Source of the DNA: Amphirosellinia nigrospora
Taxonomy: Eukaryota; Ascomycota; Sordariomycetes; Xylariales; Xylariaceae
DNA length: 64,000 nucleotides
Assembly: GCA_004123355.1 (NCBI GenBank)
Contig: SCHM01000001.1
Coordinates: forward strand, 13,464,193-13,528,192
Direction: 5' to 3'
Within the stretch, counting starts at the first letter, position 1. The number at the start of each line of letters is the position of its first letter. The notes below the pieces were generated by a model that saw nothing but the letters and a program-made list of their open reading frames with translations, had not been told where the DNA came from and did not search any database. The translations under genes were made by a program, and so were the position numbers. Below are positions 1,612 to 64,000 of this stretch, one piece after another.

Positions 1612-2746
1612 ATGGCATCACCTTCAGACTTACCGATCGTGCTCTACCACTACACCCTCTCCCCTTTCGCCCAACGAGTGGTCTGGTATCTCAATCTCCG
1701 CAAGATCCCATTTTCACAATGCGTAAGTTCTCACCCACCCTTCACATCAGTACACATACATACATACCCATCTCTAACACACACCCCAAGATGCAACCAC
1801 GCATAATGCCCCGCCCAGACATTAACCTGCTGGGCGTCAACTACCGGCGTATCCCAGTGCTATCCATCGGCCGTGACGTCTACCTCGACACCCGCCTCAT
1901 CTTCCAGAAGCTGGAGGCCCTGTACCCCGCCAGCGCGGCACACCCGGGCATCAGCCGGTAGCGGGGCGGGCCGCGCGGAGCACACGGCGATCGAGCAGCT
2001 CATCGGCCCGGACGATCGACGGCCAGCTGTTCAAGAGCCTCGTGCAGTGCATGCCGGCAAGCCTATTCTCGGACCCGGCGCTGCTGCGCGACCGCGCCGC
2101 GCTCAACGGCGTCGACGTCGACAAACCTGGGGCCGTGGCTCCCCTCGGGCCCGAGGCCATGCGGCGCGCGCGCCCCGAGGCCCTCGCCGTCGCGCACCGC
2201 TGGATCCGCTGGCTCGAGGAAGGGCTGCTCGCCGACGGGCGGACCTGGCTCCTCGACTCTAATGCTGACGGCGCAGGCGGCCCCTCGTTCGCCGACCTCG
2301 AGGCCGTCTGGGTGCTGCACTGGTCTCGGGGGTGCCGGGGGCCCTGCCCGCCGAGGTCCTGGGCGCCGAGGCCGCGCCGAGGGTGTCTGCGTGGATCAAG
2401 CGGTTCGGCGCCGCGGTCAAGGAGGCTGCGAAGGCGGCGCCCGCGACGCCGAAGTTGAAGGGTGAGGAGGCGGCGAAGCTGATCGTCGGTGCCGCGTTTG
2501 CGCAAGCCGAGGGCGAGGTCGTGCGGGGATCCTGTTGTCGATGGCCTTGGTCTGGCGAAGGGCGGCGCTGTGAAGGTGTGGCCTACGGATTACGGGTCCT
2601 CGCATAAGGATGCTGGGAAGCTGGCCGTGGATGACAAGGAGTTTGTGATCGAGGCGAAGGGGGAGTTTGGTAGTGTCAGGATACATGCGCCGAGACAGGG
2701 ATTCACTATTTCTAAGGTTGATGAAAACGTAACTTCTAAGATATAG
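1612..2746 (+). CDS. Glutathione S-transferase-like protein, frame-disrupted
   Basis: Exon 1 (1612-1722) encodes MASPSDLPIVLYHYTLSPFA and ends at GTAAGT; exon 2 resumes at 1791 in phase. The N-terminus is a thioredoxin-fold GST_N domain with the 'YRRIPVLSIGRDVYLDT' strand-turn typical of fungal GSTs, followed by a helical C-terminal half and a short basic domain with 'HKDAGKLAVDDKE' and 'GSVRIHAPRQGF'. This layout of about 330 residues matches a Pezizomycotina GST-like family of unknown substrate. The conserved reading moves between frames near 1955, 2008, 2327 and 2515, each in a GC-rich or homopolymer stretch. Each change is one or two bases and the homology is unbroken on both sides. Either this is a recent pseudogene or the sequence has indel errors; the second is favoured because neighbouring genes show the same pattern. 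Confidence 0.72.
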
Positions 2747-6803: not shown

Positions 6804-8635
6804 ATGGCACCAGCCGAACCCAAGCCGTCAGATACCACATCATCGCCAGGTGAGCTTACCGTCCCGTGTTTTTGTTTGTCTCGTGTTGTCGTCTTGACCG
6901 TGGTCATTGTGCATGTACTTGATGTCGATGCTGTTGTGATCGTGTCCTCGAGTCTGTCGTGTTGCCGGTTGTTGAGTTTGGCATTTTTAACTTTTATCAT
7001 TATTACTACCTACCCTGCATTCAGTAGCTACCGGCTCGGTTCGCTTGCTTCGCCGATTGATTTATTGTTTTGCGACCACTGACATGCGTCGTTGCATCAT
7101 CCAGAAACCAACGGCGACAAGAAGATACCCGAGACCAAGTCCGAACCCAACGGGAACATCGAGCCCGGCAGACCTCTGGCACCGCCGCCCAAACCTGGTG
7201 AGGGTGGTGATTATTTCTCTAGCCAGTTGAGCCTAGAGCCGAACCCTTTCGAGCAGTCGTTTGCCCCAGGCGGTGGTACCGTAGAGACCCCCGGCGGAAC
7301 CAAGTTGCCCAGCCTGGCTGCCTTAACATCACCGTCGTCACTGCTTCCGGGCAACGGGACCACGCCATTCAACTGGGGAGGCGGGTCTCTTAGAACGGGC
7401 CCGCTGAGTCCGGCGATGCTTTCCGGCCCAGCGACCGATTATTTCGGTGACACTTCTCACACATTGCGGAGCGGATTTACACCTAATGAGAGCTCCCTCC
7501 GCACGGGATTGACGCCAGGTGGCAGTGGTTCTATGTTCCCAGCGCCCAGTCCGAACTCGCAAGCCATTTTTGCGCAGTTGGCTAACGGCGGCGGCGCTAC
7601 CCCTAGCACGTTGGACTTCCACAGGACTGCGTTGAGCGCAGCTGCAGCTAAGGTAGGCCGTGATAAGCCTCCCAATCCACCTGCTGTTACATCTCAACCA
7701 CAAGAGACGAACGGCACGTCTGTTAAGACGGAAGCAAAACCTGCACCGGGCGCCTTCGACCCTCACGATAACGACGCGGCAAATGGTCTCTTTATGCTAG
7801 CCCAAGGTGCTCAGGGAAGAAGCGGTCCGCCTCAGACACAATACCCGGTGGGCGGGAATCAACCAGTACATGCACATCCTCCGCCAGCACCTATGAATCA
7901 GACAAATACTTCGCCTCAGATGAATGGCAACGGCGTGCATCAGCAGTCAAGTGCTCGTGGGGTTAGCGAAGCCATCAGCAACGTTTCCGAAGAGAGCGAA
8001 CAAGCTAAGCCCAATACAAGGGCAAAGGGGAAACGTGGAGCTGCCGCAACTAACGGACGCCGGAAGGCTGAAGAAGCACCCGCTAAGGCACCTGCCAGCA
8101 AAAAGGCGAAAACAGCTCCATCTACTCATAGTCAGGAGGATGAGATGACCTCGGATGAGGACGATGACGACTCTAAACTCGGTCACGATGGCCAAGGCAA
8201 GACGAAAATGACAGACGAGGAAAAGCGTAAGAACTTTCTTGAACGAAACAGGTATGTGTGCATTCCGGACCCGCGCCCCTTTCTGTGCCTCCGAGGTTCC
8301 AAACTGACATTTTTCGCAGGGTGGCGGCCTTGAAGTGTCGGCAACGCAAGAAGCAGTGGCTGGCTAATTTACAAAACAAGGTAGAGATGTTTAGCTCAGA
8401 AAACGACGCTCTCACATCTCAGATCTCGGCACTGAGGGAGGAGGTGGTCAACTTGAAGACGCTTCTCCTAGCACACAAGGATTGCCCAGTTACACAACAA
8501 CAGGGGTTGCATGGAGCCTATATGCAATCAACGATGGAGTCTTATAATCCGCAAATCAACCCGTACGGCATGGCTGCTCCTATCCCCAACCAACCAGTCA
8601 TGGCGGGACAAGGAGTGCAGCGACGCTTCTCATAG
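6804..8635 (+). CDS. atf1: bZIP transcription factor of the ATF/CREB class, AtfA/Atf1
   Basis: Stress-response transcription factor expected to act in the nucleus downstream of the Hog1/Sty1 MAP kinase and to bind CRE-like sites (family knowledge). Three exons splice without any frame problem: 6804-6849, 7105-8251 and 8320-8635, giving 502 residues. The ATG sits in CACCATGG, an excellent context. Visible parts are the N-terminal 'LEPNPFEQSF' motif and the Ser/Pro/Gly-rich osmotic-stress region (about 35-175, including 'FAQLANGGGATPSTLDFHRT'). A linker with KAKT-type basic patches follows. The bZIP starts at 'FLERNRVAALKCRQRKKQWL' (about 392-411), with leucine heptads after it. The second intron splits the basic region exactly after the Asn-Arg pair. 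A 255-nt first intron follows a 15-codon exon. Confidence 0.95.
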
Positions 8636-10129: not shown

Positions 10130-11763
10130 ATGACTACTCTTGTGCAGACACGCCAACCGCTGCAGATACTCAGCATGAGCAATCAGCAGCCCAAACGCAA
10201 GAGGAGCGAGCGTATTGCCTGTAGGTCTCGACTGTCGAGCCGCCCCAGCCTTCGCGTTGGCGGCCGATGCAATCGGACCCAAGTACAGCCGCTAACTCGA
10301 GCTTGATGTGTAGCATACGACGAGCAAGATGGAGACTTTGTCTTTAGCCGGGGATCCAAAAGGGTGAAGACGGCGCAACCCGAACCTATAGTTGAAGATG
10401 AGCTCGTCGCCACACCCCTGCGCCAAAACCTGCGCCTCGCCGTGGGCGCCCCCTAAAAAGAAAGTGGACCGCGAAGAACCGCCAAGCCAGCCAGCAACCC
10501 GCATCAAAGCCAGTGCCCGTCAGGACGTCGAAACGAAAGCTAAGCCAGATACTCGTACAGTCGCCCGACGTCCCTCCGCCGCAGAGAAGCACAAGGCACA
10601 GGACGCGCTCTTCGATAGACAAAGTGGATCCCGTGCCAACGAAAGCTACGAATGGCGCATCACGGCCTCGTCCAGTGGAGGAAGAACGCGAGCCAGAGAC
10701 GGCATCAACGCCGATGGATGTTGAGAAGTCGGGGATGATAGAGGAAGTTTCAGAGGCCAGGAAGATTGCTCTGCCATTTAGCGACACTCCGATAATAAAT
10801 CGTAATAAGGAGATGCGGAAAATGACAGGGAATAGGAGGAGTAGTGTGGGCATGCGTGGGCGCAGAGCAAGTTCCCTGATCAATAGTGGCCACAGCGCGA
10901 TACCGCACCGCGAGGTAGCCGCATCCGAGTTCTACAAGCATATCGAATCCGATGGACTGACCGAGCCTCGTCGGATGAAACAACTTTTAACGTGGTGTGG
11001 GGAGAGGGCGTTGGCGGAAAAACCACCACTCGGCTCACTGAATTCTAATGCGATCCTGGGGGTACGAACGAGCCCCGAATATCTTACGAATGGTTCAAGA
11101 ATCCAAGCCGCTAACTTGTTATTTGTAGCCCGAGCAATTCAAGATCAACTACTGAAAGATTTCTCGTCACGATCCGAGTTTTCAGATTGGTTTGCCCGCG
11201 AAGAGGTTCCCGAGGCGCCCAGACCGCCTGCGATAGTGAAACCAAATCCACGAAACATTGAACACGATGAGCACATAATTGCGTTGGAGGAGAGGATAAA
11301 CAGTACGAAAATTGCATTTATCAGGGGAGCCATGATGCTAACTGTTTTTATCAGGTTAAAACTTGAAAAGAAAAAGTGGCAATCCCTTAAAAAAACCGCC
11401 CGAAATGCCGTCACTATTCGATTCTTCCGAGCCTGGCCCAGCCAGAGCCTTCCGGACACGTCGTTACTTGACCCGGAGGAAGCGCAGATCCTCGCGTCGC
11501 TATCCACCCCCTCAGCTCCAACCATCAAGTCATTGATACCCATAACGCAAAGTCGATTACAAGACTTGCAGATATCTATCGAATTCAACGTTGATCGTTT
11601 AGCGGACAGCGTGCACAAAGTTGAACAGCGCATGGTGACGGCTGGTCGACAAGCGGATAGGATACTGGGCCTTACCGCCGTCAGGTTAAAAGAACGCGAG
11701 GAGCGGGAAAAGACTCGCGCCGGTACCAAAGATATGCCTATTATGGAAGTTCTTCGGGCCTGA
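10130..11763 (+). CDS. dsn1: Kinetochore protein Dsn1/Mis13 (Mis12-MIND complex)
   Basis: Subunit of the four-protein MIND/Mis12 complex that links CENP-C/Mif2 chromatin to Ndc80 at the kinetochore (family knowledge). Exon 1 is 10130-10220 (MTTLVQTRQPLQ...), with an alternative in-frame ATG at 10175. Exon 2 is 10314-11763. The signature Mis13 segment 'GMRGRRASSLINSGHSA' is followed by 'EFYKHIESDGLTEPRRMKQL' and 'LKDFSSRSEFSDWFAREE', then a coiled-coil C-terminus. An 'APRRGRP' AT-hook-like motif with basic KRK clusters lies in the N-terminal tail. The frame changes once, at the ACACCCC run near 10410. Summed exons are one base short of a multiple of three, so one missing base restores 513 codons. 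Dsn1 is normally essential, which argues for sequence error rather than a dead gene. Confidence 0.9.
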
Positions 11764-11981
11764 GCAAACTATTACCCGACAGCGGCGGATAGGGGCAAGC
11801 CGGAACGACGAAAAAGAAGTTAAATAGAAAAAACTCAAAAAGAAAGATACCAAACTGTATATGTCTGCAGCATTCATTCGGTCTTTATCATGGCGCAAAG
11901 GTGGGGGGACAACAACACAAGCATTGGAAGGGCGTGGAACCAATTCCGTGAAGATACCACATTTTTCGTTGTCAATTGCGA

Positions 11982-12320: not shown

Positions 12321-12365
12321 CAGCAAGCAAACAAGCAAGCAAGCAAGCAAGCAGGCAAGGCAGGC
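12321..12365 (+). repeat. (AAGC)n microsatellite
   Basis: Tandem AAGC/CAAG tetranucleotide copies with minor interruptions, ending in GGCAAGGCAGGC. Confidence 0.85.
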
Positions 12366-13465: not shown

Positions 13466-14504
13466 CTACCCTCGTAACCACAAATATCTCAAGACCGCAG
13501 AGCAGGCATGAAAGCCATCCCCCCCGCGCCCCGCGCGCGCGCGCACGTGCTCCCGCACGAGCCTGAGTATGTCGCTGTCCCGCCAGCGCCGGCACGGGGC
13601 GGTACGCGGGCTTGAACGTCCCCACCGTCTGCGCCCACTCGCCCGCGTACCTCGGCGTCGGGGGACCGGTCCCGTGCTGGGGTCGGGGGTCGCGTCGGCC
13701 TTTGTGTCGCTGTGTTCGCCGTCTAGGGGCGTTCCGCCTGTGCTTGTGGAGGAGGTGGAGGTGGTGGAGGTGGTGGAGGCTGTGGCTGTGGCTGTGGCTG
13801 TTTCGGTTGCGCTGCCGTAGGTCGCGGAGCTTGTGTCTGTGGGTGTGGGATTCGAGGATGCGGGTGTAGTTTGAGGAGAGGAAGAGGAAGAGGAAGAGGG
13901 GAGGGAGAGGAAGGGGAAGTGGAAGAGGGGGAGGAGAGGAAGGGGAAGTGGAAGGGGAAGTGGAAGGCTCCTCCTGCGTCGCCCAGTAGTAGATGTCCCA
14001 GTCATTCTCGTCCAGGAATAAATCGTACTCGGCCATCTGCTCCCGCGACATGGAGGGCAGGTACGCGTCCGCGAAGGTGGAGAGGAGGAGGTCGGTTTCC
14101 AGGATGCCGCGCTTGCGGGATTGGTCTGCTTTTGTCGTTAGCTCTGTTGCGAGTAGATGCGTGTGAGGGTTTATATGTTGCAGCGATGGGGAAAGAAAGA
14201 AAGAAAGAGGGGTGGGCTTGAGAGATGGTGAAAAAGATGAGATAGATGAGATAGATGAGACGTACACACGAGTCGTGCGCGCATCGTCTTCTCGTCCTCG
14301 CCTACGCGCCGCAGCGGCTCGATGGTGAATTCCGCGCCCTCGAATTCCCCGACGCCCATCTCGCGGGGCCGGTCCTTCTGCGGCTCCATCGGTGGCGCAT
14401 TGCCCACCGTCGCCAGGCCGCGGGCGACGAGAGCCCGGGGGCACGGACGGTGGGACGAGTGAGGATGCGGCGGGCGGGGGAGAGCGCGCGTGTAGGGATG
14501 CCAT
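13466..14504 (-). CDS. sdh5: Succinate dehydrogenase assembly factor 2 (Sdh5/Emi5), frame-disrupted
   Basis: Mitochondrial matrix factor needed to attach FAD to the flavoprotein subunit Sdh1 (family knowledge). The ATG at 14504 lies in ACCACCATGG. Exon 1 runs to 14266 (donor GTACGT) and exon 2 resumes at 14125, rejoining as '..[16 protein letters not shown]'. The diagnostic core is present: '[18 protein letters not shown]', '[18 protein letters not shown]', '[20 protein letters not shown]', then '[12 protein letters not shown]' and '[16 protein letters not shown]'. The frame changes about five times: twice in the GC-rich presequence and three times in or after a Ser/Thr/Pro-rich insert. That insert of about 80 residues between the WATQ helix and the FKPAYRPVP tail is longer than I recall for this family. 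The identity is secure; the exact protein is not. Confidence 0.85.
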
Positions 14505-15367: not shown

Positions 15368-16202
15368 TTAAATCAGATGCTTCGACCGGAAGTAGGCGCG
15401 CAGGTACATGATCTGCCAGCCCCAGAGGGCGATGAGCAGGGTGGTGGTGCCGATGCCGAACCACTTGACACGGGTGTTGGTGCTCTCGTTGGTGTCGCGC
15501 AGCTTCTGCTCGCGGGCGCGCAGGTAGTCCATCTCGTTGACAACCTCCTGGATCATCTCCTCGATGCGGCGCAGGTCGGTCTCGACGGGGCGCAGCTTCT
15601 CGGTGGCCTGGATGGCGGACCAATCCTTGGCGTCGGCACCGATGTCGATGTCCAGCTCGACGTGGCGCGGTGGGGTTGTTGAGTCGTCCTGGTTTGAAGT
15701 CGCTCAGAGCTGTGTCACGCCTTGCGTCGGCCAGGCACCGAAAAGAAGCGCGGCTGGGGCGGGCCATGGGACTTACCTCCGGTCATGATGTTCTCAAAGC
15801 ACACGTCGAAGGCGGCGTCGGCGTGCGAGGTGAAGACGGTCCGCTGCTCGCCGGCGACATCTCTCGGGCGGCCGTACTCGTTTCCGACCGTGTCTCGGAT
15901 CTATCAAGCGAGCGACCCGTATCAGCATTATATCGACAAAACAATAGGTCCCGCCTATCCACCCATCCGTCTCTCGCATATCCACATACATGTAGATTGA
16001 CCATCTGACCATCCCCCTTCGAGCCGCTCACGATGGACGTGACCACGACTAAGGTATCCTTGGCGACGAAATTCCGTATGCACCTCTCCTTCTTCCCATC
16101 GCGCTGTGGTACCGAGGCGAGTTCGAACTTGAGGGCGTTGACGGATGCGATGAACAGCACGACGCTGCAGATGTACTGCAGCAGTCCTCGTGGCAAAGCC
16201 AT
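15368..16202 (-). CDS. erv25: p24-family COPII/COPI cargo receptor, Erv25 type
   Basis: Type I membrane protein of ER-Golgi vesicles that forms p24 heterocomplexes and helps select GPI-anchored and other cargo (family knowledge). Exon 1 is 16202-15990: [20 protein letters not shown] signal peptide, then '[20 protein letters not shown]'. Exon 2 is 15900-15777 (GOLD domain, '[18 protein letters not shown]'). Exon 3 is about 15702-15368: '[19 protein letters not shown]', a coiled coil, '[20 protein letters not shown]' as membrane span, and the short cytosolic tail ending YFRSKHLI. The phases sum correctly (224 codons) only if exon 3 begins at a CTGAG acceptor. The more usual CAG a few bases downstream would break the frame, so either a rare acceptor or an indel is present. 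Confidence 0.92.
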
Positions 16203-16882: not shown

Positions 16883-17759
16883 ATGCCGAAATGTAAGCAT
16901 GGCTTCTTTTCTCCAGATAAATGTCGTCTTCTTCCATCTCTCCTCTCTGACTCCCGCTTCTGCCACTGCTTCTACCTCTGCTTCTGTTTCTCGAGCATCC
17001 TAACCTGGACTGACGCCCGGCGAATACACAACTAACGTGGCATCGTGATAACAGTCTTCTGCGACTACTGCGACGTGTACCTGACGCACGACTCAATGAG
17101 CGTGCGCAAGGCTCACAACAGCGGTCGAAACCACCTACGTAATGTCGTCGACTACTACCAACAGATAGGTCACGAGAAGGCCCAATCCGTCATCGACAGC
17201 ATCACCTCCTCATACGCCGCCGAGGGCCAGGCCCACGCTAATCCCATGCTGCCCAGAACCAGCCCGGCGCCCACGGTGCTGGCGGTGCCCCGGGCGCATT
17301 CCCACCGCCCTTCAGCTTCCCAGGTGGCATGCCTCCGCCGCCTTTCCCTGGAATGCCCGGCGCTCCGCCTATGCTACCTCCCGGTGCTGCTTTTCCCGGC
17401 GGCATGCCTCGTAAGTGCCCGTTTCCCAGTCTCCTTACGCATATCCTGACGACTCTTTCATTCTAGCACCACCAGGACAAGCAGGAGCCGGTCGCGGTGG
17501 TCTTCCACCATTTCCAGGCCCCGGTGGTCTGCCCATGCCACCGCCTGGCGGAATGCCGTTCCCTCCACCAGGTGGTATGCCATTCCCTGGCTTCCCTGGG
17601 ATGCCACCGCCCGGCGCACCAGGATTCCCTGGTGGCCCCTCGCCGTCTGGAGCGCCTGGTTTCCTTCCTCCAGTTGGCGGTCCCTCACCTTCTGGTGCTC
17701 CTGGTTTCCCACCTCCGGCTGGTGGCCCGCCAGGTCATCAAGGTCATCCCGGACGTTAG
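16883..17759 (+). CDS. yhc1: U1 small nuclear ribonucleoprotein C (U1-C)
   Basis: Component of U1 snRNP that stabilises pairing of U1 snRNA with the 5' splice site. Exon 1 (16883-16892) encodes only MPK plus one base; exon 2 is 17055-17410 and exon 3 is 17467-17759. The matrin-type zinc finger is textbook: Cys6, Cys9, His24 and His30 in '[20 protein letters not shown]', followed by the '[16 protein letters not shown]' helix. The rest is the usual Pro/Gly/Met-rich tail ('[20 protein letters not shown]'). One frame change occurs at 'CTGCCCAGAACC' near 17250. One more C gives Leu-Pro-Gln-Asn-Gln and then the expected proline-rich tail, and the exons total 659 bases, one short of 660 (219 residues). 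Confidence 0.93.
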
Positions 17760-18841
17760 AATAAATCGGGAAGCAATTCAGGGCCCGGGCAATCTATGAA
17801 CCGTAAAGCAAGCAACTAGAACCTGCGCTCTCACCCTTGCCTCAACTATCGGGTCTCAAAGCCTACACAGAAATGAGCTTATAGATGAGCTGATCGCAGA
17901 TGCCAAGAATCATGTTGGATCTAGTGATTGACGGCTGACATGTCAATTTCATTCGAGTCAGCACCGAAGCTGAGGTTCAGCCCACTGATACAAAACAAGC
18001 ACGCTTAACCTTTTTAGTATCTCACAAGATACGCAATGAAAGCACAACACTGAGCACATTATTATTTGATCCCGAATCTGGTCACTCCTTCACCGGATGC
18101 GTGGGTAACGACGAGGAGAGCATTAACCCTTCGATAGGTGAATATCCAGAGGCCACCACTGGTATGTGAAAAGTTCTAGGGGTGAGATAACTCACGTTCG
18201 GAGTAGAGAGGGCATTAGGAGCAATACTGCCTTGTTCAAAATGAACAGGGTCTACCGGTCTTTTTCGTTGTAGACTTGTTTGGTCGGAAAGCACGGCGTT
18301 CAGGCTGGCTAGATATGGCATGGGTTGGTTGGCGTCTGCATCTCTGTTCAAATGTGCGCGTACTGGTCGGATTGATCATACGATAGATGACATCGTTGTG
18401 ACTACTTTATTCCTCGGTGTAAGACCAACAACCCAAAACTAGGCGGAATGCTTATAGTTGAATCATGAAGCATGGTTTTTTTTTTTTTAATTAATCAAAC
18501 TGTATCAATGGTTTATTAAAGTCACATTTCCAGAGATTTCATGGTGTGTGATGGAGGCGGGAAAGTGTGGTAATATCTACATTTTGATGTCGTGGTTCGG
18601 GTCATGTCTTTCTTGATGCGTGTCCTCAGTATTTGACTCTTCGTAATTATTAGTGCGGCGCTGTGCTGGTGGTATATGAGTGGATAGATGGGTAATTGAT
18701 GAATTCTAAGACTTGATATGAACACTTTACAACTCAAGAGTGGAGTGGAAAACACCCATGTAAACGGAAAGTAGACATGAAGTCTGGTGGCATTCAAGGA
18801 TAGATCGTGAGGGGAAAGCTTCATCATGTTTATGGCACCTG

Positions 18842-19255: not shown

Positions 19256-20008
19256 CAAATTGTATCGTATCGTGTCGAATGGCTTGATCTATCTCCCCAG
19301 CCTAATGGATCCAGTCCATTCATCGACCAGCCTCAACATCCTATGCTCATACAGTTTACATAATCCGAGCCAAGCTCTTCATGATGATCGTGACAAAGGG
19401 GAGGTTAAGATAGGCAAGTAAGTAAGCGGATTACCTAAGCAAAAAAGAAACGCCGCTGGGGCGAGGGGAAAAAAATTCAAGAGATATCAAAGAGCATGAC
19501 GAAAACCCGTCGATATCCATGTGCGCATGTATGTGTGTATGTGTGTGTGTATGTATGTAGAATTTCCATTTACGACGCTCGAGATAGAAAAAAACACAAA
19601 TTCAAATCCTCAAATAAAAAAAAAGGCAGGGCAAGAGAGTCAGTCCTCTTTCCCTCCTAAAACCCCGAGCCATGCGTGCATATTCTGTTCTTTTTTTCTC
19701 CCTTGTTTCATTCCCTCTCCTTCTCCCCCCATTCCCTCCCATTTGCCTAGGGATAAAATGCAAGAAATCAATCAAATCCAACTCCTACGCCTTCGAATTG
19801 TGAATATCCATCCTCATAAGAATCGTGCAAACTACTACCAGGGTAATGTGCGAGTGACGTATGTGGGGATATGGTGTGTACTTGGTCTAGCTGAATCTCG
19901 TGGCTCATGTGCGTCGTTAAAGGGTAGAGGTAGAAAAGGTGGGGTTTTGATGGTCCATGGCAGAGATGTGGCACATGAACAGAATCATGATAGGCTGGTT
20001 TTTGGGGC

Positions 20009-23000: not shown

Positions 23001-23216
23001 GTCGTCTAAGAGACCATGGGGCGCAGGTGGGCTTCCGCTTGCTGTAGCAGACGCGAGTTTGTCGGCTCTAGGACGAGGAAGTGCTTTATGTTTCTTGAAG
23101 GACCGCTGGTTCGGCTTAGCCAGTGTCCGGTGTTCGTAAGGGGGGTCAAAATAAAGAGGCGTCGCCGTCGTCGGTATCGTCGCAGGCGCTGCAACGATCT
23201 CGGAAGGCGAGAGCAT
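20009..23216 (-). CDS. Large serine/arginine/proline-rich protein of unknown function, frame-disrupted
   Basis: I recognise the C-terminal part as a conserved uncharacterised filamentous-fungal protein: 'PPAIKFIPATPSGLTPAAEK', then 'LVRRAFSLRQGS', 'ARTLSLSKTSRR', 'KLHPFWRP', 'RRSLSERMRRTFAILPIEN' and 'RRTIKRTPSGNLRVM'. It ends with a basic helix ('GWQEKLEQYKPQNLQRRLSE') and stop at 20009. Upstream segments are low-complexity, with 'KQEFFTFDGEWVSNSEVELE' and Ser/Thr tracts. The proposed start is the ATG at 23216 (MLSPSEIVAAPA). No catalytic domain or membrane span is visible; repeated RRxS/RxxS motifs suggest phosphorylation (inference). Frame changes lie near 22990, 22740, 21390, 21180 and 20250, and one in-frame TGA lies at 21860-21862. 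Introns cannot be excluded for some of these. Two adjacent genes are possible but less likely. Confidence 0.6.
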
Positions 23217-39973: not shown

Positions 39974-42002
39974 CTACCAAAGCAGGGAGTCGTCCTCCTC
40001 CGAGCCTATCGGTACCGGGTCTGCCTCTATTTCAATCATGCCTGACGTTTGCTTCCTGAGAAAAGAAGAGCAGAGGATGCCAGTAGCTACACTGACGTTC
40101 AGACTGTCGACTACATTCAGGAATCCACCTGTCGGGCTGGGGATTGATACTTCGTGATCCGCCTGTCGTCGGACTGGTTTCGTTAACCCCTCTCCCTCGC
40201 TACCGACCACTAATATCGTTGGTTGCAATGATAAGGGGTCATATGTCTCGACGCGGTCTACAGTTAAATGTGAATTGTTTTTGGACCGCTTTGTTGACGG
40301 CACTGCGGCATATACTTGCCATCCGTTCTCCTTTGAACGTGCGAGGAAGTCGACTGTTGAGTTGACAGAGAACAACGTCATCACTTCAGATGCGCCCGCT
40401 GATGCCTTCAGCGCTACTGCCGTCAACGTAGCTGAGCTACCTTTGGTGATGGCGACTCCATTAACCCCGAGGAATGCGGCGGTTCGAAGGATCGCTCCTA
40501 GATTACCTGGATCCAGGATACCGTCTAAGAAGAGGATAAACGGGTTTCGCTCCTTGGGTAGCTGGTAGCTCACAAAATTAGATGTCCCATTGATTTTAGC
40601 CTCCTCGCTAGATTGATGAGATAGTTCGAGATGGAAACCAGGTTTCTGAGGGTCCTCAGACAAGGATCCCAGTGCTTTGAGCGGTAGCTGGGGCAATGGC
40701 GACGCCTCGAGGACGTATCCGTTGTGCGGTCTACCGCCGCTCATCTTGTCCATTATGTGAATGGTACCATTTGGTAGCTTGGTCACCTCGACTCCCTTCT
40801 TGCGTGCCAGGTTTGTGAGTATATCGTCTTGCGACACATTTTGCCTCTCGTCACCGTTGTAGATGTACAGTTTGTAGAGCTGTCTTCGGGAATTTTTCAG
40901 TGCCGCCTCGACGACGGATCGCCCATACAGGAACTGCGAGGCCGCGGTGGTGTGGTGGACACGAATAGGACCGTCGTCTCTCCGGCTAGCATGTTCTCCT
41001 CGAGCATCCCCGCCTTCGCTATCTCGGGTTCTACTTGAGTTTCTGGGCATGTTTCTAGAGGATTCGAAGTGATTTTGAAACGACGACGCATCGGTAAATG
41101 CTTCGCGTTGGGGCCCGGAAGAAGAGATATCGGGACGCCTTGTGCGCTCCTTGTCAAAGCTCCTCACCTCCACGGGCGACCTCGTCCATGATTCGCGCTC
41201 TTCGGGACGTTTGGTAAATGCTTCGCTCCGGAACCCCGAAGAAGATTTGTCAGGCCGTCTCGACTTGTTGGGCATGGCTCCAGAAGAATCGGCGTTGTCT
41301 TCGAACGACCATGTATTGGTAAAATCATCGCGCCGGGCCCGGAAGAGGATATGTCAGGCCGCCTCGTGCGCTCTTTGTCAAACCTCCTCTTCACGAATGA
41401 CCCCGTGCGTGATTCCCGCTCCTCGGGACGTCTGGCACGTACCGAAGAGGTGGGTTCTCTGCGGCGACCTGTCGTGGGCTCTGCCGATCGGCCGTTGCTT
41501 GCCTCAAAATCCTTCATAAAGTCGTGTGTGTTGATGCGGTCGGTGGGTGCTCGGCGGCTGAAGGGCGCCGTTTGACTGCGGCCTCTCGCTTCTAGTTCGG
41601 CCATCTTTTCCCTCAGTGCTCCATGCTTCGCCTGGTATACAAAGCTTCGTTTACCGAAGCTATGTTCGGGGTCATTGAAGCGCGCCCGCCTCGAGGGGGC
41701 TTCGGGGCCCGTGTCGGTGATATCTTTCTTGCCCTTCCTGATTTTGAAGTCGGGCGGCGTCCAATCTGGGTCCCGGCTGTTGCGTCGTGGGTCTTCGAAG
41801 AGCGGCGGGGTTTCGCGGTTTCTAGCGATGAGTGGCTAAAGCCTTGGGGCTTGTATTTCTGTGATTGTCGTAGGCCATGGTGGATGGCCGAAAGCGACGA
41901 TGCGGGCTGAGAGGGAATGAGGGCAGCTCGGGGTGTGTTCAACCGTCTCAACAATACATTATTATGTCTACAGAGTAAACTTGACGAAATTGGGAATCTC
42001 AT
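39974..42002 (-). CDS. mrm1: Mitochondrial 21S rRNA 2'-O-ribose methyltransferase (Mrm1/Pet56), SpoU family
   Basis: SAM-dependent methyltransferase that modifies a conserved guanosine of the large mitochondrial rRNA (family knowledge). It starts at 42002 (MRFPISSSLLC) with an Arg/Ser-rich presequence. The SpoU substrate-binding domain begins at 'ASQFLYGRSVVEAAL'. The trefoil-knot motifs are complete: 'LDPGNLGAILRTAAFLG', 'ILVVGSEGEGL' and 'SIPSPTGGFLNVVDSLNVSV'. Between presequence and catalytic domain lies an Arg/Asp/Ser-rich linker with repeated 'RRPDISSSGP' and 'RPEERES' units. No intron is needed. The frame changes near 41825 and 41340; the locus is two bases short of 2031 (676 residues). 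mRNA starts are divergent from the remodeller gene at 42780. Confidence 0.9.
41075..41445 (-). repeat. In-frame degenerate tandem repeat in the mrm1 linker
   Basis: Two strongly similar and one weaker unit carrying the RPEERES, FDKERTRRPDISSSGP and SSG motifs. The similarity is also obvious in DNA, for example 'ttgtcaaa..ctcctc' and 'ccggaaga' blocks at about 41115-41165 and 41345-41395. Confidence 0.75.
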
Positions 42003-42779: not shown

Positions 42780-45700
42780 ATGGATGCAATGGAGGTTATA
42801 CGAGATGAACCTGGCCGCCTTCCAGAGAACGAGGATGATGTACTTGCCTTGGATATAATGGAGGATGTGCGAGGCGAGCCCGGCAGTTTTCTTAGAAGTG
42901 AGGAGGTCGAGGATGATTTTGACGCCGACAACGCTGCAGAAATAGAGCAGCCTAGACAGCCTTCGCAGAGCTTTGTTACCGAGGCCGAGGGCAGTACGGA
43001 CGATGTAGCAACAAAGGAAACCCCTGGCACTCCTGCTTCAAAGGCCGTCGTAAAGGACTTGTCGATTGAATCCGGCCTCGTGCAGGGCGCCCTCGAGAAT
43101 GGACATGACGCCAAAAGACGACGAACTGGAGGATAACATGACAATTCCCAGCCCGCCGCCACGACTGCGCACCATCGAAGTCGTCCTGAACGCCCCCCCT
43201 GATCCTGACTTATACGAGTATATCCCTCGGAGTCGGAAGGTCCTGCGGGTTGTAGACGAGTTTGAGCGCGGCGGTGAGACTTACTACCAAGTCGAGTTCG
43301 GAGATGGTCGCATAAAACATGTAAGTAAAAACCCGATGAGACATCGAATTTTCGTAGTGATCGCCTCAAATATCTGGACTTGCATAACTATACGCCGCGC
43401 CTGCCAATATTAGTTACAACAACGCGATGCCTCGAGAAGCAGGAGTCTCGTCTGTTTGCCCAACTACCTACTGCCTTCCAAATCCTGCACCCTTTATCTC
43501 CATCTCCACCTTCGTCACCTTCACCATCACCTTCATCTTCACCATCATCATCACCACCGTTACCTTCACTCACACACCCACACCTTCTTTAACAGGGTGT
43601 TTTCTATCTCATCTTTCTCCAAACCTCATCACTTTCACAGTAAATACAACACAAAAACCTTCTACGCTTATAAGTTCGCATTCGTATTTCACAAGCACTC
43701 TTCTGCACCTGGCTCCCTCTGTCCAGGCCCCTTTAGACAACGACAACTTACAGACTGCGTCCCAGTAGGCGGCCGCTGAGGCAAGATGGTATGTTATACA
43801 CTGCAGCTATGCACGAAGATTGCCATACAGCAGCTGAGCTTGCCTGTGTTGATCTTAAAGCCGCGTCTTGTCCCCGCCGCTGTGCTACTCACGTTAGTCT
43901 TGCTAGTCTGTTTAGTTTGAGCTGCCGTTTTCCTTACCTATGGCCAAGGACTGCTAGGCCTTCCTGTACCATAAACAACTTCATCCGTCCCATTCACATA
44001 CATCTTTCATGTCATCAACTAATCGTCTGTTCTTTACGTAGGCCACTTACAACCACGCCATTCAATACAAGGGCGGCCGAGCAGTCATTCAGGCCTACGA
44101 GTCCACGTTTGGGCTAGACACCGCCGTCATGGCAAGGAGTTCAAGCAAAAGACCTCGCTCAGAGGACGAGTATCACGAATCTGATTCTGGTTCTGAATAT
44201 GCCATAGGCCCAAAGCGCCGCAAGCATCACAAACCCAGAGCTCGTCCCATTCGCAGGAGCGAACGCCAAGCGTCCCGCCAAGCATCAGCTGATATAAGTC
44301 GTGAGTATGAATTTGACGATCCAAGGTCTCAACAGTTTGACCTGGATGATGGCGAATCAGAAGAAATGGAAGAGGTCGTAAAGAAAACCCGAACATCCGT
44401 TGTTCCATTGCGCACGAGCCGCCAGACAAGATCCCGGAACTCGACTAGTCAGAACTACACAATGATCACGAATTCCGAGGATGAATTGGCGCAGGACAAC
44501 AATGAAAGTGATTTCGATGATTTCGTGGTTCGCTCAGATATCGCGCCCGCGCCGCGGAAGTCGAAACGGAAGAAATTCAAAGTAAAAGCTAGTAGGATTA
44601 TAAGACGAGATGACAGTGACTCGGCATCGAATTTGAACCAACTCGTCGCTCGGGTAGGTCCACTAAGCACTCGAGAAGCATGAAAGATCCGGAGATGGAT
44701 GAGTATGATGCGGTCGAGGAAAGACAGACCAATGCACCAAAACATGCGGCCATCAAAGAGGTGTTTCAGCAACTAGGCCCGAATTCCCCTTTTCAGAACT
44801 TTCACACAGACATATGCGAGTCTTGTGCTGAGTCTGGAGGGGCTAGGAACCCTCTCGTACACTGCCAAGGTTGCTCTTTTTCTTACCACAAGACATGTAT
44901 TGGCATTAGGGCGTCGCGAGAACACAGAGTTACCAAGATTGGGCATGATGACTTCGTTCTACAGTGCAAGTTCTGTATTCAAAGTTACAAGAAGAAAGAT
45001 GCACGGGCACCGGACCACTCATTGTGCCAAGTGTGCAAGATGCCGGGGCTCTCTTGTAACGAATTTTCCATCAAGAAGACTACCAAACAAGAGGAGAAAG
45101 CACGAATCGATAACGGAGGGTGGACCCCATTACAGAGGTAGACCGGAGCTTGGTCAATAATGTTGATCATGTTCTCTTTCGATGCACTAACTGCAAACGT
45201 GGCTACCATTTTAACCATCTCCCGGCCATTACGACCGAGATGGTGGATGATGAGGATCTTGCAACCAACCGACTTGAGGAATACGCATTAGCCGGCTGGA
45301 GTTGCAAGGATTGTATCAACACCAACTATAAGCTGCAATTTAGTTGCCTGGCGGCCGCTGGACCAAAACGCGCATCTTTTAGGGCAGACCAGCCAAGATT
45401 ACAACGAAGGTGATATGGAATACCTTGTCAAATGGTAGGACGCTCGCACTTTCATGACACATGGATGCCAGGAGCTTGGATTTTCGGAATTGCCCAAGGC
45501 GCCACGCGGCAGTCGTTCCACAAACGCGATTCGTCGACTTATCCCAAGATGGATAAAGCTACTGCTATTGATGAAGAGTGGTTATTGCCCGATGTTCTCC
45601 TCAATGTGAAATATCGCAGTCGAGTAAGCACTTCAACCAAAGCTGAAGACTTGGAACGAATCGACGACATCACTTCTGTCTTTGTTAAGTTTCAGGGCTT

Positions 45701-48682
45701 GAGTTATGAAGAGGTTGTCTGGGATGAGCCCCCGCCACGGGACTCTGGCGCATCATGGAGGCCTTCGTCGCGGCCTACGACGAATATCTCAATGGCAAGT
45801 ACTTTACTGCAGTGCCTGATTATAAGATGCGTGAACGCATCGCGCTCTACAGGTCTCTCGACTTTGGAAAAGACTGCGAACTAAAGAGCCAGCCCATTCA
45901 ACTAAAACAAGGAAAGCTTATGGAATACCAAATGGAAGGTGTTAACTTTCTTTTATACAATTTTCACCAGCAGCAGAATGTGATCCTCGCGGATGAGATG
46001 GGACTAGGCAAAACGGTCCAGATTGTCGCATTCATCTCTGCCCTTACCCATTCTCAGCCGGGCTGCTGGCCGTTCTTAGTTGTGGTACCAAACTCTACAT
46101 GCCCAATTGGCGGCGAGAGCTAAAACACTGGGCACCTGATTTAAGGGTTGTGACCTACCACGGTGGAAGAGTCGCACAAGATCTTGCTTACAGACATGAG
46201 CTCTATCCTAATGGCCCTAACGGTGGCATGAAGGCTCACGTAGTCATCATGTCTTACGAAGCGGCTGCCAATGTTAAGAGTGTCTTTACCGGGTAAAGTG
46301 GGTTGGTTTGATAGTTGACGAGGGACAAAGATTGAAGAACGAAGAAACCATGCTCTACAAATCGCTCCAGGATATGAAGATTCCATGTCGAGTGCTCCTT
46401 ACAGGTAAGGGGGAAATGGCTTGCTTCTCACGTCCATGGCGGTTGGCTAACAAACTATCAAGGTACACCTTTGCAAAATAATAAGCGAGAGCTTTTTACC
46501 CTCCTACAGTTTATTGACGACAAGAGAAATGCTGAGGAGCTAGATGCGAAATACGCCGAGCTGACAAAAGATAACCTCCCGGAATTGCATAGCCTTATCC
46601 GGCCATATTTCTTGCGGCGAACCAAAGCTCAGGTTCTGAAATTCCTTCCTCCGATGGCACAAATCATTTTGCCAGTAACCATGACCGTCGTTCAGGAGAA
46701 GCTGTCCAAGTCCATCATGGCGAGGAACCCTGAGCTCATTAAAGCTATCATCTCGAAATCGAGGCTCAAGGCTGGAGAGCGGAAAAGTATGAGCAACATT
46801 CTCTCTGATCTCCGGCAGCTACTATGCCATCCATTTTGCTTCAACAGCGAGATTGAAGATAAAACAGTGGATATGACCCAGATGTATCGGAACCTCATTG
46901 AAGCTTCGCCAAAACTGTTGCTATTTGAACTGATGCTCCCGAAATTAAAAGAGAGAGGCCATCGCGTTCTAATCTTCAGCCAGTACCTTCATTCTCTTAC
47001 AATTCTAGAGGACTTCCTGACTGGCCTAGAGATGCCTCACGCGCGGATCGACGGGACCCTATCTGCCCTAGAGAAACAAAAACGTATCGATGCATTCAAT
47101 GCCCTGACTCTCCTCTGTTTGCTATGCTGCTTTCCACTCGTGCCGGAGGTGTTGGAATCAACCTCGCTACCGCAGACACGGTAATCATATACGACCCGGA
47201 TTTCAATCCACACCAAGATATTCAAGCGTTGTCGCGTGCGCATCGTATTGGACAAAAACGCAAGGTATTATGCTTCCAACTTATGACAAAGAATACGGTC
47301 GAAGAAAAGATCATGCAAATGGGCCGAAAGAAGATGGCACTTGATCATGCTCTCATCGAGAGTATGGACGCAAAAGAGGAGGCCAGTGAAGACCTAGAAT
47401 CTATTCTCAACCACGGAGCCGCCGCCCTGTTCAGTGACGAATCCAAAGACAAGATTATTTATGATCACGCATCTGTCGATAAGCTCCTGGACCGGAGCCA
47501 GATCGAAAACACCGACACCGGGAATGATGATTCGGCCGAAACACAGTTTTCCTTTGCACGGATCTGGCGAACGACAAGGGTGAGCTCGCCAGTGATACGG
47601 GAATTGCAGCTGAAGACGTAACGCCGGAGCCAAGCACGAGTATTTGGGAGAACATTCTTAAGGAGCGCGAAGCAGAGCACGAGCGTGAGCGTGCTGCAAA
47701 TCAACGGGTCTATGGTCGTGGTGCCAGACGACGGGGCACACAAGGCATTGACTATAAGACCAACCGCGTAGGTTTCATTGAAGGTGTTGATGACTTCTTA
47801 TTAACAATAGGGCAGCCCAGAGGAGAAAGCGTCGGTTCCGAAGTCGACGTGGAGGGCGATGAACTATACATCGACCAGAACGAGATGGACGATGATAGCG
47901 AGGACTATAGAGAGGCAGGCGAGTTATCCACGAGTCTGGAAAAGAAAAAGCACCAAAGGTAGAATCCTAACCACAAGGACTCGGAGGAGCCCGAAGAAAG
48001 AGACTAAAATGAATGGTCCGTCTAGGAACTCAAAGAACGCCGAACGATACATCGCAACCTCCACCCCAACAAATCCAACCACCCAGCAACCCCACGGGGT
48101 CCAAACCAAAAGCACGACCCAAAAGAACGGGCCCGAGTCAGCCGTTCCGACGCCAATGCTGCCGTCGACCATAGGGTCACAACCACCTGCACCTCGGCCT
48201 CAGGCAATTCCATCTCCTCGACCTCCTCACTCACAAGCACAGCTCCAGACAACACTTCCCCCACGCATTTTAAACAGTAACTCACAAACCCCTACCCCTA
48301 TTCCTAATCAATCGCACTTGCTAACTATAAATTCCCACTCAACTAACCCCATTACCCCTTCCAATATGGGTCGGCCAGCCGCTTATTCCAACGGACTACG
48401 TCGCCGAGCCATCGTCAGATGCCGACCCTTCAGCCGCCCGCAGTGCGACTCCCTAATGGCGATGTCACTCCTACCGGCCGTATTGGAGGCGGAGCTCCTT
48501 GTGCTCTTTGCCGCCGTGAGCACCTCACAACCAGTCCATGTGTCGATCTGAACTCGGAGCTTTCGCTACGCTTAGCACTTGATAGACTCAGGGCTGGTGG
48601 CGATGGCCAAGCGATACGCGCTGCTCGCAGCTACCTCACTCAAAGGCTCCAAATTGTGACACAACGAGGGATTAAAAAATGA
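42780..48682 (+). CDS. Chromodomain-PHD-SNF2 chromatin remodeller, Mit1/Mi-2-like, frame-disrupted
   Basis: ATP-dependent nucleosome remodeller related to fission-yeast Mit1 of the SHREC silencing complex and to Mi-2/CHD proteins (family knowledge). It starts MDAMEVIRDEPG; 'RKVLRVVDEFERGGETYYQV' is an N-terminal chromo-like segment. PHD region: 'CESCAESGGARNPLVHCQGC' with 'CKFC' and 'CQVCKMPGLSC'. Chromodomains: 'MEYLVKW' with 'GRSHFHDTWMP' and 'TSVFVKFQGLSYEEVVWDEP'. SNF2 motifs: 'ILADEMGLGKTVQ', 'LIVDEGQRLKNEE', 'IFSQYLHSLTILEDFL', 'AGGVGINLATADTVI' and 'RAHRIGQKRKV'. A C-terminal 'CALCRREHLTTSPC' zinc knuckle closes the protein. Sure exon borders are 43320, 44042, 46404 and 46463. The 0.7 kb at 43321-44041 probably holds an unresolved exon. 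About a dozen one-base frame changes occur, mostly apparent deletions (for example near 44650, 45115, 45435, 46098, 46294 and 47120). Confidence 0.85.
43321..44041 (+). other. Intron region with CT-rich low-complexity tract
   Basis: A GTAAGT donor at 43321 and an ACGTAG acceptor at 44041 bound this region. At 721 nt it is much longer than the other introns here. A possible exon near 43358-43500 ('DRLKYLDLHN' in one frame) does not join in phase. The stretch 43495-43590 is a CCTTCA/CATCAC low-complexity tract. Confidence 0.4.
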
Positions 48683-57977: not shown

Positions 57978-60900
57978 TTATTCCAAATACTCTAACAACC
58001 TCTTCAAGTAGGTTAGCATTAGAAATGGTTAACCCATAGGTATAATCCAGACTTACATTCCACCTGATTTCACGGACCTTCTCCTCTGTTTGCTCAGCGG
58101 CCGCGAAGGAGTCTTTTATCAACCTCAACTTTTCTGCTTGTATCCATTGGACGTACTATAAGTAGTTAGTATTGTCCTCGTGAAATATGCCGGTGAAGGT
58201 TTAATAGCCTAGTCAACTTACTACCTCGATCGAGTCAGACGCGACGTATCTAATGACCGTCACATCCCGCTCCTGCCCAAACCGATGTACTCTGTCAACT
58301 GCTTGGGCCTCAGCTGAGGGGTTCCAGTGTGGTTCGATTATATGAACTGTCGTCGCGGCGGTGAGTTCGATGCTATAGGTCAAGTTAGAAGTGATGTTAA
58401 GCTGTGGTTGGTAGTAAAGGCGTGCGTACCCTTCTCCTGCAGCCCCAATACTCGCTAACATGATGAGGTAGCTTGCATCGTCGTTGAACTTCTCAAGTGC
58501 TTCTCTTCTTTGCTGCAAAGTTTGTCCGTCGATTCGTTGGGACTTCAAGCCGCTTATCTTGAGTGCTTTGGCTATTTGGTCAAGCATTTTTGTCCAGTAG
58601 CTGAATATCACACTACGTAAAAGGGAGGAATTAGCGCTAATCTGAGTTATTGTATCGTAGGTAAAGTCGAACGCACTGTTTTTCGGCACTTCTCATGTCG
58701 ATGTTTCGAAGCAGAGCCTTGACTTTGTCTGAAGGCACATAGCGTTCTATAGAGGGGGCGCTCCCGAAGGGCTGAGATGGATATAGTGGACTGGACATCA
58801 ACTTGGAGGGTGATTTGGAGGGTGATTTGGAGCCGGTCGTAAGCGAGAGAGACTGAAGCGCCGGTGGCAACGGCGACGAGCTCGATACACTTCCACACTT
58901 TGGGCAACCATCATTATTTATTTGAGACTTGGCAGCGCATTCAGTACAGAGGACGTGACCGCAGGTCATATTTCCCAAGTCGCTCGCTTCTAGGCTGTCA
59001 ACCTCGTTGCCGCAGCCGACACACTTGTCAACCCCTGATTCTAGCACATCCCAATTGATAGCATCAGGGTCCCTATCTCTCCACGCCTTGGTGGCTGACT
59101 CGGGAAGAAGTGCTTCGCCATGATCGCATATGAGGCGGAGAAGGCTAATCAGGACGACAATGTTTGATCTGTTGCCGCCGCTACCACCAGTGCGTGCTCT
59201 TCCTTTCCCCTTCACAGCCGTCGACTTTTCTAAATTTGCCATCAAATATGATCTCCGCTTAAAGAATTCATAGAGTTGCTTATCATTACCAGTGAGATTA
59301 ACCATCTCCATTCGCTCAGTCTTTCGAGTTAGTCCGAGGGCGGCGGCATGGCTTGCTTTTGTCCGCCGTAGTGTAGTCGCAGCGATGAGGGTTCTTAGCG
59401 TATCCAGACTTCCCTCCTTCTTCTCGTTAACGCGGTTTCCAATCACTTTTGCAAACATGCCTGCTTCATGAAAAGGGGGGACGCCGACAAATAGGAGCAA
59501 GGCACCAAAATCGTCCAGACTATTTTGAATGGGCGTGCCAGTCAAACACCATCGCTTTTGCGCAGAAATTTGAAAAACTGCCTTGAAAGTCTTGGACGAG
59601 TGATTACGAATCTTGTGTGCTTCGTCTAAGACGACTCTAGCCCATTCTTTCTCAAGCAATGGGCCTTTTTTATCACGATCAAACCGCAAGGTGTCATAAG
59701 TCGTGAGTACAATATCATATGAGGCGCTTTTTCGAAGCTCTTGTTGGCGGTTCTGGCCGTGGTATACGATAAAACTGATCCGCCCTTCCCGGATATGTCT
59801 TTGTATCTGGTTCTCCCAAACATGGATAGTCGACTTCGGCGTAACGACTAGGGTATCTCGTGGCATTTTCCGCTGAGACGAAGCTGACAGCTTGTCAAAG
59901 TTATCGAGTGAATGGCATATCAAAGATAGCGTGGATAGTGTCTTACCCAACCCCATCTCATCGGCAAGTATACCACCACCCACTGGCGGGGGCTTCTCCA
60001 TTTCAAACCTGCCCGTGACGACATGTTTATACCGTCCATTGTGCTCCGAAGATGGCCGCCAAAGTGGAGGGAAGTTAGCATTATGATAGATGCCAGCTTC
60101 CTTCTCAACCATCATTACGAGAGCTTCAAGTTGGTGTCTCTTTAATTTTGTTTGCAACCTCGGACTCTGCTCGATCGACAATGTGAATGACGCCTCATAT
60201 GCTGAGTCGAAGATTTTCAGAATCTGACTCCTTTCAAGCTCGCCGAGGGATGACCGTGAAAATGCGCCTCTGTTTGTTGGTAGGCAACAACATATGGGAG
60301 TCAGTGCCTTTATATCCGGCATACTTTCTCCTGGGGGCAAGAGATACTGGGGGTTGTGATACTTGACGTTCCTGTCTATCTCGTGTGCTCCAGGGTGCTG
60401 GAGAAATAGCCCGGCTTGCCCCAGAGCGTTACCGACAGCCATCTCTTCACCCATAAACCCATAAACATGGAGTCTAACGGACCGACACGCCCGCGACTGT
60501 AATTCGTCAATCGCTCGTGGCTTCTGATTCTTTATTGACCTGTGCTTTTTGCCACATACAGTCGCGTTTAACGTGATTTTGAACCGATCTAATAGTTTGC
60601 AGAGCGATTCTGCAACCAAGACGGCGACACATGTGTCCTGATCTTGCAGAGAGAAGTGACAATCATACGACTGATGCTGACTATTGCTGGAGTGCATTCT
60701 GTTGGTAATATTGCTTCGAGGTTGGCCTCCGCTTCTACAAGTAGCTGCGATCGTGTTAATCTGGCTATCAAGAGCAGCATCGTAGGGTTGCCTTACCATA
60801 CCAAAGCAGGTATCATACTTTTCCGTAGACTTGGGCCGTTCAGGTCCCGGACTGAAAGTCCACCGTTTATCAGGCGGATGCAGAACCATGCTATTAGGTT

Positions 60901-61338
60901 GCTTTGGGGAACCTGGCACGGGAATCGTGGAACTTGGACCAGCCGCAGCCCTCAAGACCGATAACCGAAGCCCGCTAACGTTGACATCGTCGCCTGGTCT
61001 ATAGAGCCGTATGTGATCATTAGATAATTGGTCAACTAACATTGTAGATTCGTCTGGTGACTCTCGTTTTCGCTTTCCTCTGGATACCAACGGTTCATCA
61101 ATTTCCATCTCATCCACGTTGGTTAGCTCGATATTAGTGCGTTTGTATATCCCCTCTTTTGAGTCGTTCATCCCCTGTGGGTCATCAAGGAATCGCTTTA
61201 TTAAGGGCCGGGGTACCTCAATACTCCAGGTTTCTTCGACCGAGCTCCTTTGCCATCGTCGGTGAGATTAATAACCACTGCGCCCTTGGGTATCGGTGAC
61301 TTCTCATTCTCATCGTCCAATGTCCGTTTCGTCGTCAT
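57978..61338 (-). CDS. SNF2-family ATPase with RING finger, Rad5/Rad16-like
   Basis: DNA translocase with a built-in ubiquitin-ligase RING, as in Rad5, Rad16 and HLTF-type proteins of DNA-damage tolerance and repair (family knowledge). The preferred start is ATG 61338 (MTTKRTLDDENEKSPIPKGA); an internal ATG at 61171 begins MNDSKEGI. Motifs: 'GGGILADEMGLGKTLSTLSL', 'RVVLDEAHKIRNHSSKTF', 'RWCLTGTPIQNSLDD', the RING 'CVGCGNE...CGHVLCTECAAK...CPKCG', then helicase C 'SASIGAAGEG' -like and 'HWNPSAEAQAVDRVHRFGQE'. Exons: 61338-58677, 58612-58430, 58372-58222, 58155-58057 and 58001-57978. All phases agree except one break near 61225; the exons total 3119 bases, one short of 3120 (1039 residues). The exact orthologue is uncertain because fungi have several paralogues. 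Confidence 0.88.
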
Positions 61339-62039: not shown

Positions 62040-64000
62040 ATGCAAATTATGTCGTATGATCCCGCCGAGGAAGCCTTTGACGCTGCGAAGAAGTCATTTC
62101 ATGACGAGCTAAAAGACCAGAAGCTGTACGATGATATCCTTGCAAATGCTGCGACAGTGGACGATGTGTACCAGATGGCCGCGAAGTTACAAGAAGAAGC
62201 AGCTTCGCAGTCGAGCATGCGAAACCTCAGGAGATTACAGCCGTTTCTTGACATCCTCTCCGGATACGGGCAAGTCATTGAAGTCTTCGTGCAGGTGAAG
62301 CCAGAGATCTTAGCGCTGATATGGGGCCCGATCCGATTGATCTTGAAGTGGTCGAGCGAGCTGACGAAGGCCCTGGATGCCATGGCTGATGCGATGGTTA
62401 AAATTGCTCAGACCCTACCTCAATTTTCTGAGCTGGTCAACGTGTTTCCTGATAGTGTGCGTATCAACGCTGCGTTGGCTTTGTTTTACGGAGATATCCT
62501 CCAGTTTTACCGTATCATTCTAAAGGTCTTTCGCAATTCGCGTCAGTACACCTCCCCCATTTTCTAGTGGCTTGCTCAGTTGACCCGATTTATAGGGTGG
62601 AAAACATTCTGGGATACGCTGTGGAGTCGTGGTAAAGAAAATATCGATACCATCATTAAGCAAATCGCTGGACATGTACTTCTCATGCGAAATGAAGTTA
62701 GCGTTGCCGAAATTATTGCCGCAGACAAGGCGAGGGTCAGATCCCTTATCCATTTCGAAGAAACACAGCAATTTCAAGAGCTTCAAAAGTTCCAAGGGCT
62801 GAGAACACGTCTCGATCCACCTCAGTATGGCGAGCGCCTCGACTGGCTCCGGAACAGAGTCCACCAGAACAGCTCGAAGTGGCTGCTGCAGGACATGTTG
62901 TTTCAGGAATGGCTCGATATATCCACAAGGGAGACAACCTGGCTGTGGATACAGGGCATCCCCGGTAGCGGGAAACGTATATCGCTGCGGCGGCCGTTGA
63001 TGAGGCTGCCAGAAAACACCGAGCACTATTTGTATTCATCAGTCATAACAACTTCAACAGCACGACGGCCCTGTCGATCACACAATCCCTTGTTTTCCAA
63101 GCCGCAGCCGACGACCATACTCTGCAGACTATGGTAGTCGATTTCAGCGAGCGGGAATTCACAAGCGATGGTGGAAAGGCGCTGGAACTACTGAAGGCTT
63201 TGCTAACTGCCTTAGATGAGACTTTTATTATTATTGATGGTCTAGATGAGATGGAGGAGTCTGAGCGATACATCTTTCTCCGGCGTCTCGATACCCTAGC
63301 GGCCGCATCCACCAAGCTAAAGATTCTGATATGTAGCCGGCCGGAGGATGACATTGTAAAAGCGCTTAGCAAGAAGAGTAAGAGTCTCCGGGTGGACCAG
63401 AGAAATATGGCAAGCATCCAGGGGTTTGTCGACGATAGGGCACAAGAATGGATGGCCCAGCAGGACTTCAGCCAGCACTCCGTGTCCGAAATCAGCTATT
63501 TGCTATCGCCCCTCGCAGCTCGAGCGAATGGTAAGGCCCAGCACCTTTATTTTCCTCACCCCAGGCAGCACTAATTCACAAGATAAAGGCATGTTTCTCT
63601 ATGCGCGTATTGTGCTCGACAATCTAGTAGAGCTAAGTAGTATCGAGGAGATCCGACAAGCGCTCAAGGCGCTTCCCACAGACTTGAATGATGCGTGAGT
63701 ATTTATTTCATCACAAATATTCCTCGCCTTCTACCGTATAACACCAAACTCAAACTATAACATTAGTTATCAGCGGGTTTTCAATCGGATCAACAATTCG
63801 CACCGCCATATAAAAGAGAAGGCTAGAAGAATCCTCGGCTGGATAGGGTGTGCTCCGGCGCCTATGACAACACTCGAGATGGAACAGGCACTATTGCTAG
63901 AGCGGTCTGTCGAGGGCATTCCTTCGATCATTGGCACTACCAACTTCCTCAAATTGTGCGGTCCTATCATCGAAATCGTGAACGAGAAGCCGCAGTTCGT
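62040..64000 (+). CDS. DUF7708-NACHT STAND protein (fungal NLR-like), 3' end outside the window
   Basis: Signal-transducing NTPase of the fungal NLR class, often linked to heterokaryon incompatibility or innate immunity (family knowledge). Start MQIMSYDPAEEAFDAAKKSF at 62040, or the second Met at 62049. Exons: 62040-62541, 62596-63530, 63589-63694 and 63767 onward, with consistent phases. The N-terminal helical region 'LIWGPIRLILKWSSELTKAL' fits the DUF7708-type domain. Walker A is 'WLWIQGIPGSGK' and Walker B 'FIIIDGLDEMEE'; 'LKILICSRPEDDI' is the sensor strand and 'GWIGCAPAPMTTLEMEQAL' the winged-helix region. One base appears missing directly after the Walker A lysine: an extra A would restore the required Thr and then 'YIAAAAVDEAA'. 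The C-terminal repeat domain lies beyond the edge. Confidence 0.85.

Follow-up and report, generated by a model that had tools for sequence, protein, structure and literature searches.

Frame breaks in conserved genes of an Amphirosellinia nigrospora contig and their probable origin as consensus deletions

Long-read-only assemblies of fungi are the closest described counterparts of the pattern reported here. In nanopore assemblies of ascomycetes, the available portions of two reports describe the same class of error: small indels break the frames of conserved genes in Drechmeria coniospora (PMC7500977) and in other species (PMC9453082), they concentrate in homopolymers, and the split open reading frames (ORFs) jointly rebuild the protein. 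The available text of PMC9453082 also states that indels in three inspected genes of other ascomycetes dropped with coverage. In a related setting, the accessible part of the Kastor study (PMC12007338) describes frameshifts in draft long-read sequences that make genes seem to be pseudogenes; its cases resemble ours in this respect, and differ in that they concern small genomes and were compared with a curated set.

We analysed a stretch of 64,000 nucleotides of Amphirosellinia nigrospora DNA (the window), in which conserved genes are broken in the manner of the fungal assemblies above. Set against what the available parts of PMC7500977 and PMC9453082 describe, deletion types dominate here, long homopolymers survive, and the damage is uneven. 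We consider it highly probable that the breaks are residual consensus deletions in the assembly and that the organism itself carries intact genes. The gene content suggests a filamentous ascomycete: introns are short and of the GT-AG type, and a MIT1-like remodeller and a DUF7708-NACHT gene are present beside an AltA1-like match. The genes considered are as follows, with positions counted from the first base of the window.

1612..2746, plus strand: GC-rich GST-like gene; four changes (1929-1960, 2008-2011, 2269-2331, 2483-2533), placed by reading
6804..8635, plus strand: ATF1-type bZIP gene; two introns, no frame change; Aft1 HRA, HRR and OSA domains and bZIP_1
10130..11790, plus strand: DSN1/MIS13 gene (dsn1); four changes near 10417, 10450, 10507 and 11760, placed by reading; MIS13 E=3e-52
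13520..14503, minus strand: SDH5 gene; four changes in GC-rich stretches, placed by reading; Sdh5 E=2e-19
15368..16202, minus strand: emp24/p24 gene; two introns, unbroken; EMP24_GP25L E=2e-28
17050..17760, plus strand: YHC1/U1C gene (yhc1); one change at 17253-17255, placed by reading; zf-U1 E=1e-17
27246..28435, plus strand: arginase/agmatinase-family gene; five introns, by reading; six changes in the 3' part; Arginase profile in two frames
38244..39102, minus strand: Cys-rich gene with a Ser/Thr-rich tail; one -1 change between start codon and signal-like peptide, from display inspection only
39974..41991, minus strand: MRM1 rRNA methyltransferase gene (mrm1); two changes, at 41809-41825 (by reading) and 41336-41353; SpoU_methylase E=4e-29
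44120..48660, plus strand: MIT1/CHD-like chromatin remodeller; eleven frame changes; zf-PHD-like, SNF2 and Helicase_C matches split over frames; aligned to yeast Chd1
58200..61338, minus strand: SNF2-RING (RAD5-like) gene; one weak N-terminal -1 candidate at 61202-61260; SNF2 E=3e-66
62040..63698, plus strand: DUF7708-NACHT (NLR-like) gene; one change at 62974-62976, in the P-loop; in-frame TAG at 62565

Three-frame displays were read with typed peptides as anchors, and this yielded 34 frame changes unassigned to introns in 11 genes; the -1 change of the Cys-rich gene is left out of this count. Most of the 34 were placed by reading the displays, and introns were assigned manually. Pfam profiles were scanned over selected regions and strands, translated in three frames with each stop written as X. 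Three genes were aligned to relatives of solved structure by a protein-to-DNA script that permits introns and, at a penalty, frameshifts. As a non-coding check, tRNA and Rfam genes were sought in the window and none were found.

At least one change is present in 9 of the 11 genes (8 without the weak SNF2-RING case). Twenty-five changes are of the -1 type, with one base missing (two-sided sign test p = 0.009), and the other nine are of the +1 type, with one extra or two missing bases; these nine count against a consensus deletion error. One-base frame breaks across conserved genes, as a sequence-only reading of the window had proposed, are thus confirmed. All six positions that it singled out lie in, or at most 10 bases from, a frame-change interval: about 10410 (10416-10418), 17250 (17253-17255), 44650 (44620-44679), 45115 (45114-45137), 61225 (61202-61260), and 62977 (62974-62976). 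It had also held that several spliced genes fall short of a multiple of three, a claim we judged by frame sums rather than spliced lengths. On this measure yhc1 is one base short through its single -1 change, mrm1 is two bases short through two -1 changes, and the Cys-rich gene is one base short through a -1 change near the start codon, by display inspection only. The dsn1 changes have the signs -1, -1, +1, and -1, and their sum agrees with a one-base shortfall only on condition that the stop preceding the last change is the end of the gene. For the SNF2-RING gene the one -1 candidate agrees, but a start downstream in the open frame is possible.

Six breaks have independent support: those in the PHD-like domain and at three ATPase sites of the MIT1/CHD-like gene, in the NACHT domain, and in an internal repeat of mrm1. 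In the remodeller, near 45.1 kb, the zf-PHD-like profile matches over positions 1-109 in one frame and 95-170 in another, and at 47.1 kb the Helicase_C profile matches over 9-70 and 67-110 in different frames; in both cases the DNA of the two matches overlaps. Aligned to yeast Chd1, the ATPase region needs three one-base deletions, one intron (46405-46462), and no stop, with a score of 864 and 208 of 488 aligned residues identical. Relatives of two pieces of this gene were sought in viral and prokaryote contigs, and relatives of its DNA in plasmids, and none were found. At 46299-46330 (plus strand) the ATPase reads DEGQ where yeast Chd1 has DEAH, a difference that perhaps characterises this family of remodellers.

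In the NLR-like gene, the NACHT profile NPHP3_N matches near 62.98 kb over positions 2-51 in one frame and 36-164 in another, again on overlapping DNA. The TAG at 62565 is the only in-frame stop between anchors alongside the 34 changes; it is possibly a real stop and possibly an erroneous one. In mrm1, the interval of the second change also contains a one-base gap between two copies of the internal repeat; elsewhere the copies differ by one three-base gap and many substitutions. One mrm1 frame searched against solved structures gave no match at 0.001. The first exon of the GST-like gene matches GST_N_3 at E=4e-4, just under the curated cut-off. For the arginase gene, protein-to-DNA alignment places an intron at 28312-28406. 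At a relaxed penalty it calls two breaks (three against one relative), and at the default penalty it calls none, a loss that counts against a consensus deletion error.

Damage is not spread evenly. Break density differs between genes (dispersion p = 0.005 over 11 genes, whose lengths are partly hand-rounded), and this unevenness also speaks against a consensus deletion error. The extremes are the SNF2-RING gene, with 1 of the 34 changes in 3.05 kb, and the MIT1-like gene, with 11 in 4.3 kb; density and GC content have a rank correlation of 0.45 (p = 0.17). The SNF2-RING gene has an unbroken ORF of 876 codons (61267-58640) and, aligned to RAD5 as a control, shows no frameshift over 297 residues even at the relaxed penalty. 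Such differences might stem from read depth or polishing that varied along the sequence.

The sequence-only reading placed the breaks mostly in homopolymers or GC runs, and a preference for both is borne out. In the 25 of 34 break intervals of at most 40 bases, whose ends, as in the others, are set by hand-chosen anchors, the longest run averages 3.12 bases, compared with 2.52 for intervals drawn at random from the same genes (p = 0.0002); 17 of the 25 contain a run of at least three bases, with 11.1 expected (p = 0.007); and GC content over 30 bases is 0.657 against 0.557. Over all 34 intervals the longest run averages 3.41 against 2.87 (p = 0.0004). Across the window there is no sign of depletion of long homopolymers: runs of 8-18 bases persist, among them T18 at 11982 and T13 at 18476 (both plus strand), and A/T runs of at least 9 bases number 8, with 0.4 expected under a dinucleotide model. 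This persistence counts against a consensus deletion error, and it leads us to reject homopolymer compression as the sole mechanism.

A reference-free decoder, which uses codon usage, stops, and splice signals only, gave a second view of the window; because its training set was 3,951 codons from the same window, it is not a fully independent test. It called 13 frameshifts in 23,253 decoded coding nucleotides (0.56 per kb). Synthetic intact genes gave no frameshift calls and one stop call in 285,414 coding nucleotides, and the reversed window gave no frameshifts. With simulated deletions at 1.0 per kb the decoder made 137 calls in 284,754 decoded coding nucleotides (0.48 per kb), and at 1.9 per kb 159 calls in 240,495 nucleotides (0.66 per kb); these two rates bracket the call density of the window. 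Eleven of the 13 calls agree with a hand-placed interval to within five bases, and the others are at 23000 and 43098. The former falls among long ORFs in neighbouring frames (19771-23899, minus strand) that have no Pfam match and are possibly one large gene with similar breaks.

The converse comparison is less favourable: the decoder recovers 11 of the 34 hand-placed breaks, reads SDH5 as an unbroken two-intron gene counter to its four hand-placed changes, and has no model for the arginase and YHC1 genes, all of which weighs against a consensus deletion error. Its recovery is 5 of 11 in the MIT1-like gene, 2 of 4 in the GST-like gene, 1 of 4 in dsn1, and 1 of 2 in mrm1 (the second change); it also calls the N-terminal break of the SNF2-RING gene and the break of the NLR-like gene. 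Its model of the latter has two introns and no stop, and probably spans the TAG by a short intron. At 1.9 deletions per kb it made 159 calls for 562 introduced deletions, and the recovery of 11 in 34 is in keeping with this. In the ATF1 and emp24/p24 genes it finds coding sequences of 1509 and 630 nucleotides with no breaks. The count in the window depends on the penalty, with 31, 13, 9, and 3 calls at -6, -8, -10, and -12, and this fall, too, is a point against a consensus deletion error. In sign, the 13 calls comprise 10 FS2 and 3 FS4, so that single-base indels dominate here as among the hand-placed changes. Simulated deletions gave FS2 and FS4 in a ratio of 148:17, a half-and-half mix 101:97, and insertions 22:153; the ratio in the window fits deletions better than either of the others.

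These results are best read as a single process, in which the genes would be whole and one-base, sometimes two-base, deletions would have been left in the consensus. Their rate would lie somewhere from 1 to 2 per kb of coding DNA, and short homopolymers and GC-rich stretches would be their favoured sites. The source would be an under-polished long-read assembly. We infer that the genome contains the missing bases, and likewise which type of sequencing was used. The systematic deletion bias proposed from the sequence alone draws support from how many changes there are, from their sign and sequence context, and from the scarcity of nonsense codons; it is qualified by the uneven density and by the long homopolymers that were kept, which show that homopolymers were not simply truncated throughout. 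A further point against it comes from the available part of PMC7500977, where polishing gave more insertions than deletions.

The first alternative is joint decay: in a relaxed genome, or in a haplotype or nucleus that is silenced, the genes would be degenerating in concert as true pseudogenes. The share of genes with frame changes, the TAG in the NLR-like gene, and the uneven density would suit such decay. Nonetheless, at most one in-frame stop beside so many breaks argues against it: 10 substitutions per indel would give 13.5 nonsense codons (P(<=1) = 2e-5), and 5 per indel would give 6.7 (P = 0.009). The shortfall is not significant at 3 per indel (4.0 expected, P = 0.09) and the test is uninformative at 1. 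The frames are otherwise open, and the motifs appear preserved, as do most splice sites. As the earlier reading argued, several of the genes are normally essential and joint decay is implausible; the unrelated functions affected and the near absence of stops support this, and we regard decay as very improbable. Decay of the MIT1-like gene alone was rejected, since 23 of the 34 breaks are in other genes and its ATPase aligns without a stop.

A still less probable alternative is that the deletions are real, in a nucleus or haplotype where conserved genes gain one-base deletions and point mutations lag far behind; a deletion-biased mutator acting on a redundant nuclear copy is one example. If true, this would be remarkable, and the present evidence does not favour it.

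Ordinary missed introns have very little chance of accounting for the changes. Some introns are real (those in the MIT1-like and arginase genes placed by alignment, and two each in atf1 and p24), but overlapping domain matches in two frames leave no room for an intron. A GT-AG intron explains neither these overlaps nor any of the three ATPase sites of the MIT1-like gene, where an introns-only fit to Chd1 scores 698 over 444 residues, a loss of 166 score units and 44 aligned residues. Programmed frameshift sites or correction by RNA editing would suit the prevailing single direction (25 of 34), but eleven sites in one gene and the involvement of unrelated genes make them scarcely credible, and we know of no fungal system of such density.

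Elsewhere in the window, the AltA1-like match (33214-33483, minus strand) lies in a single frame at a Pfam E=3e-5, just under the curated cut-off, and is adjoined by a Cys-containing ORF (31632-32513). Diverged tandem repeats with periods of 66, 30, 29, 21, 159, 33, and 18 surround minus-strand ORFs at 53889-55303.

Very probably, then, the breaks are an artefact of the sequence and ordinary as biology. Annotation based on this assembly is likely to leave many conserved genes split, truncated, or labelled as pseudogenes, and any gene loss claimed on its strength, such as that of the MIT1-like remodeller, would probably be wrong.
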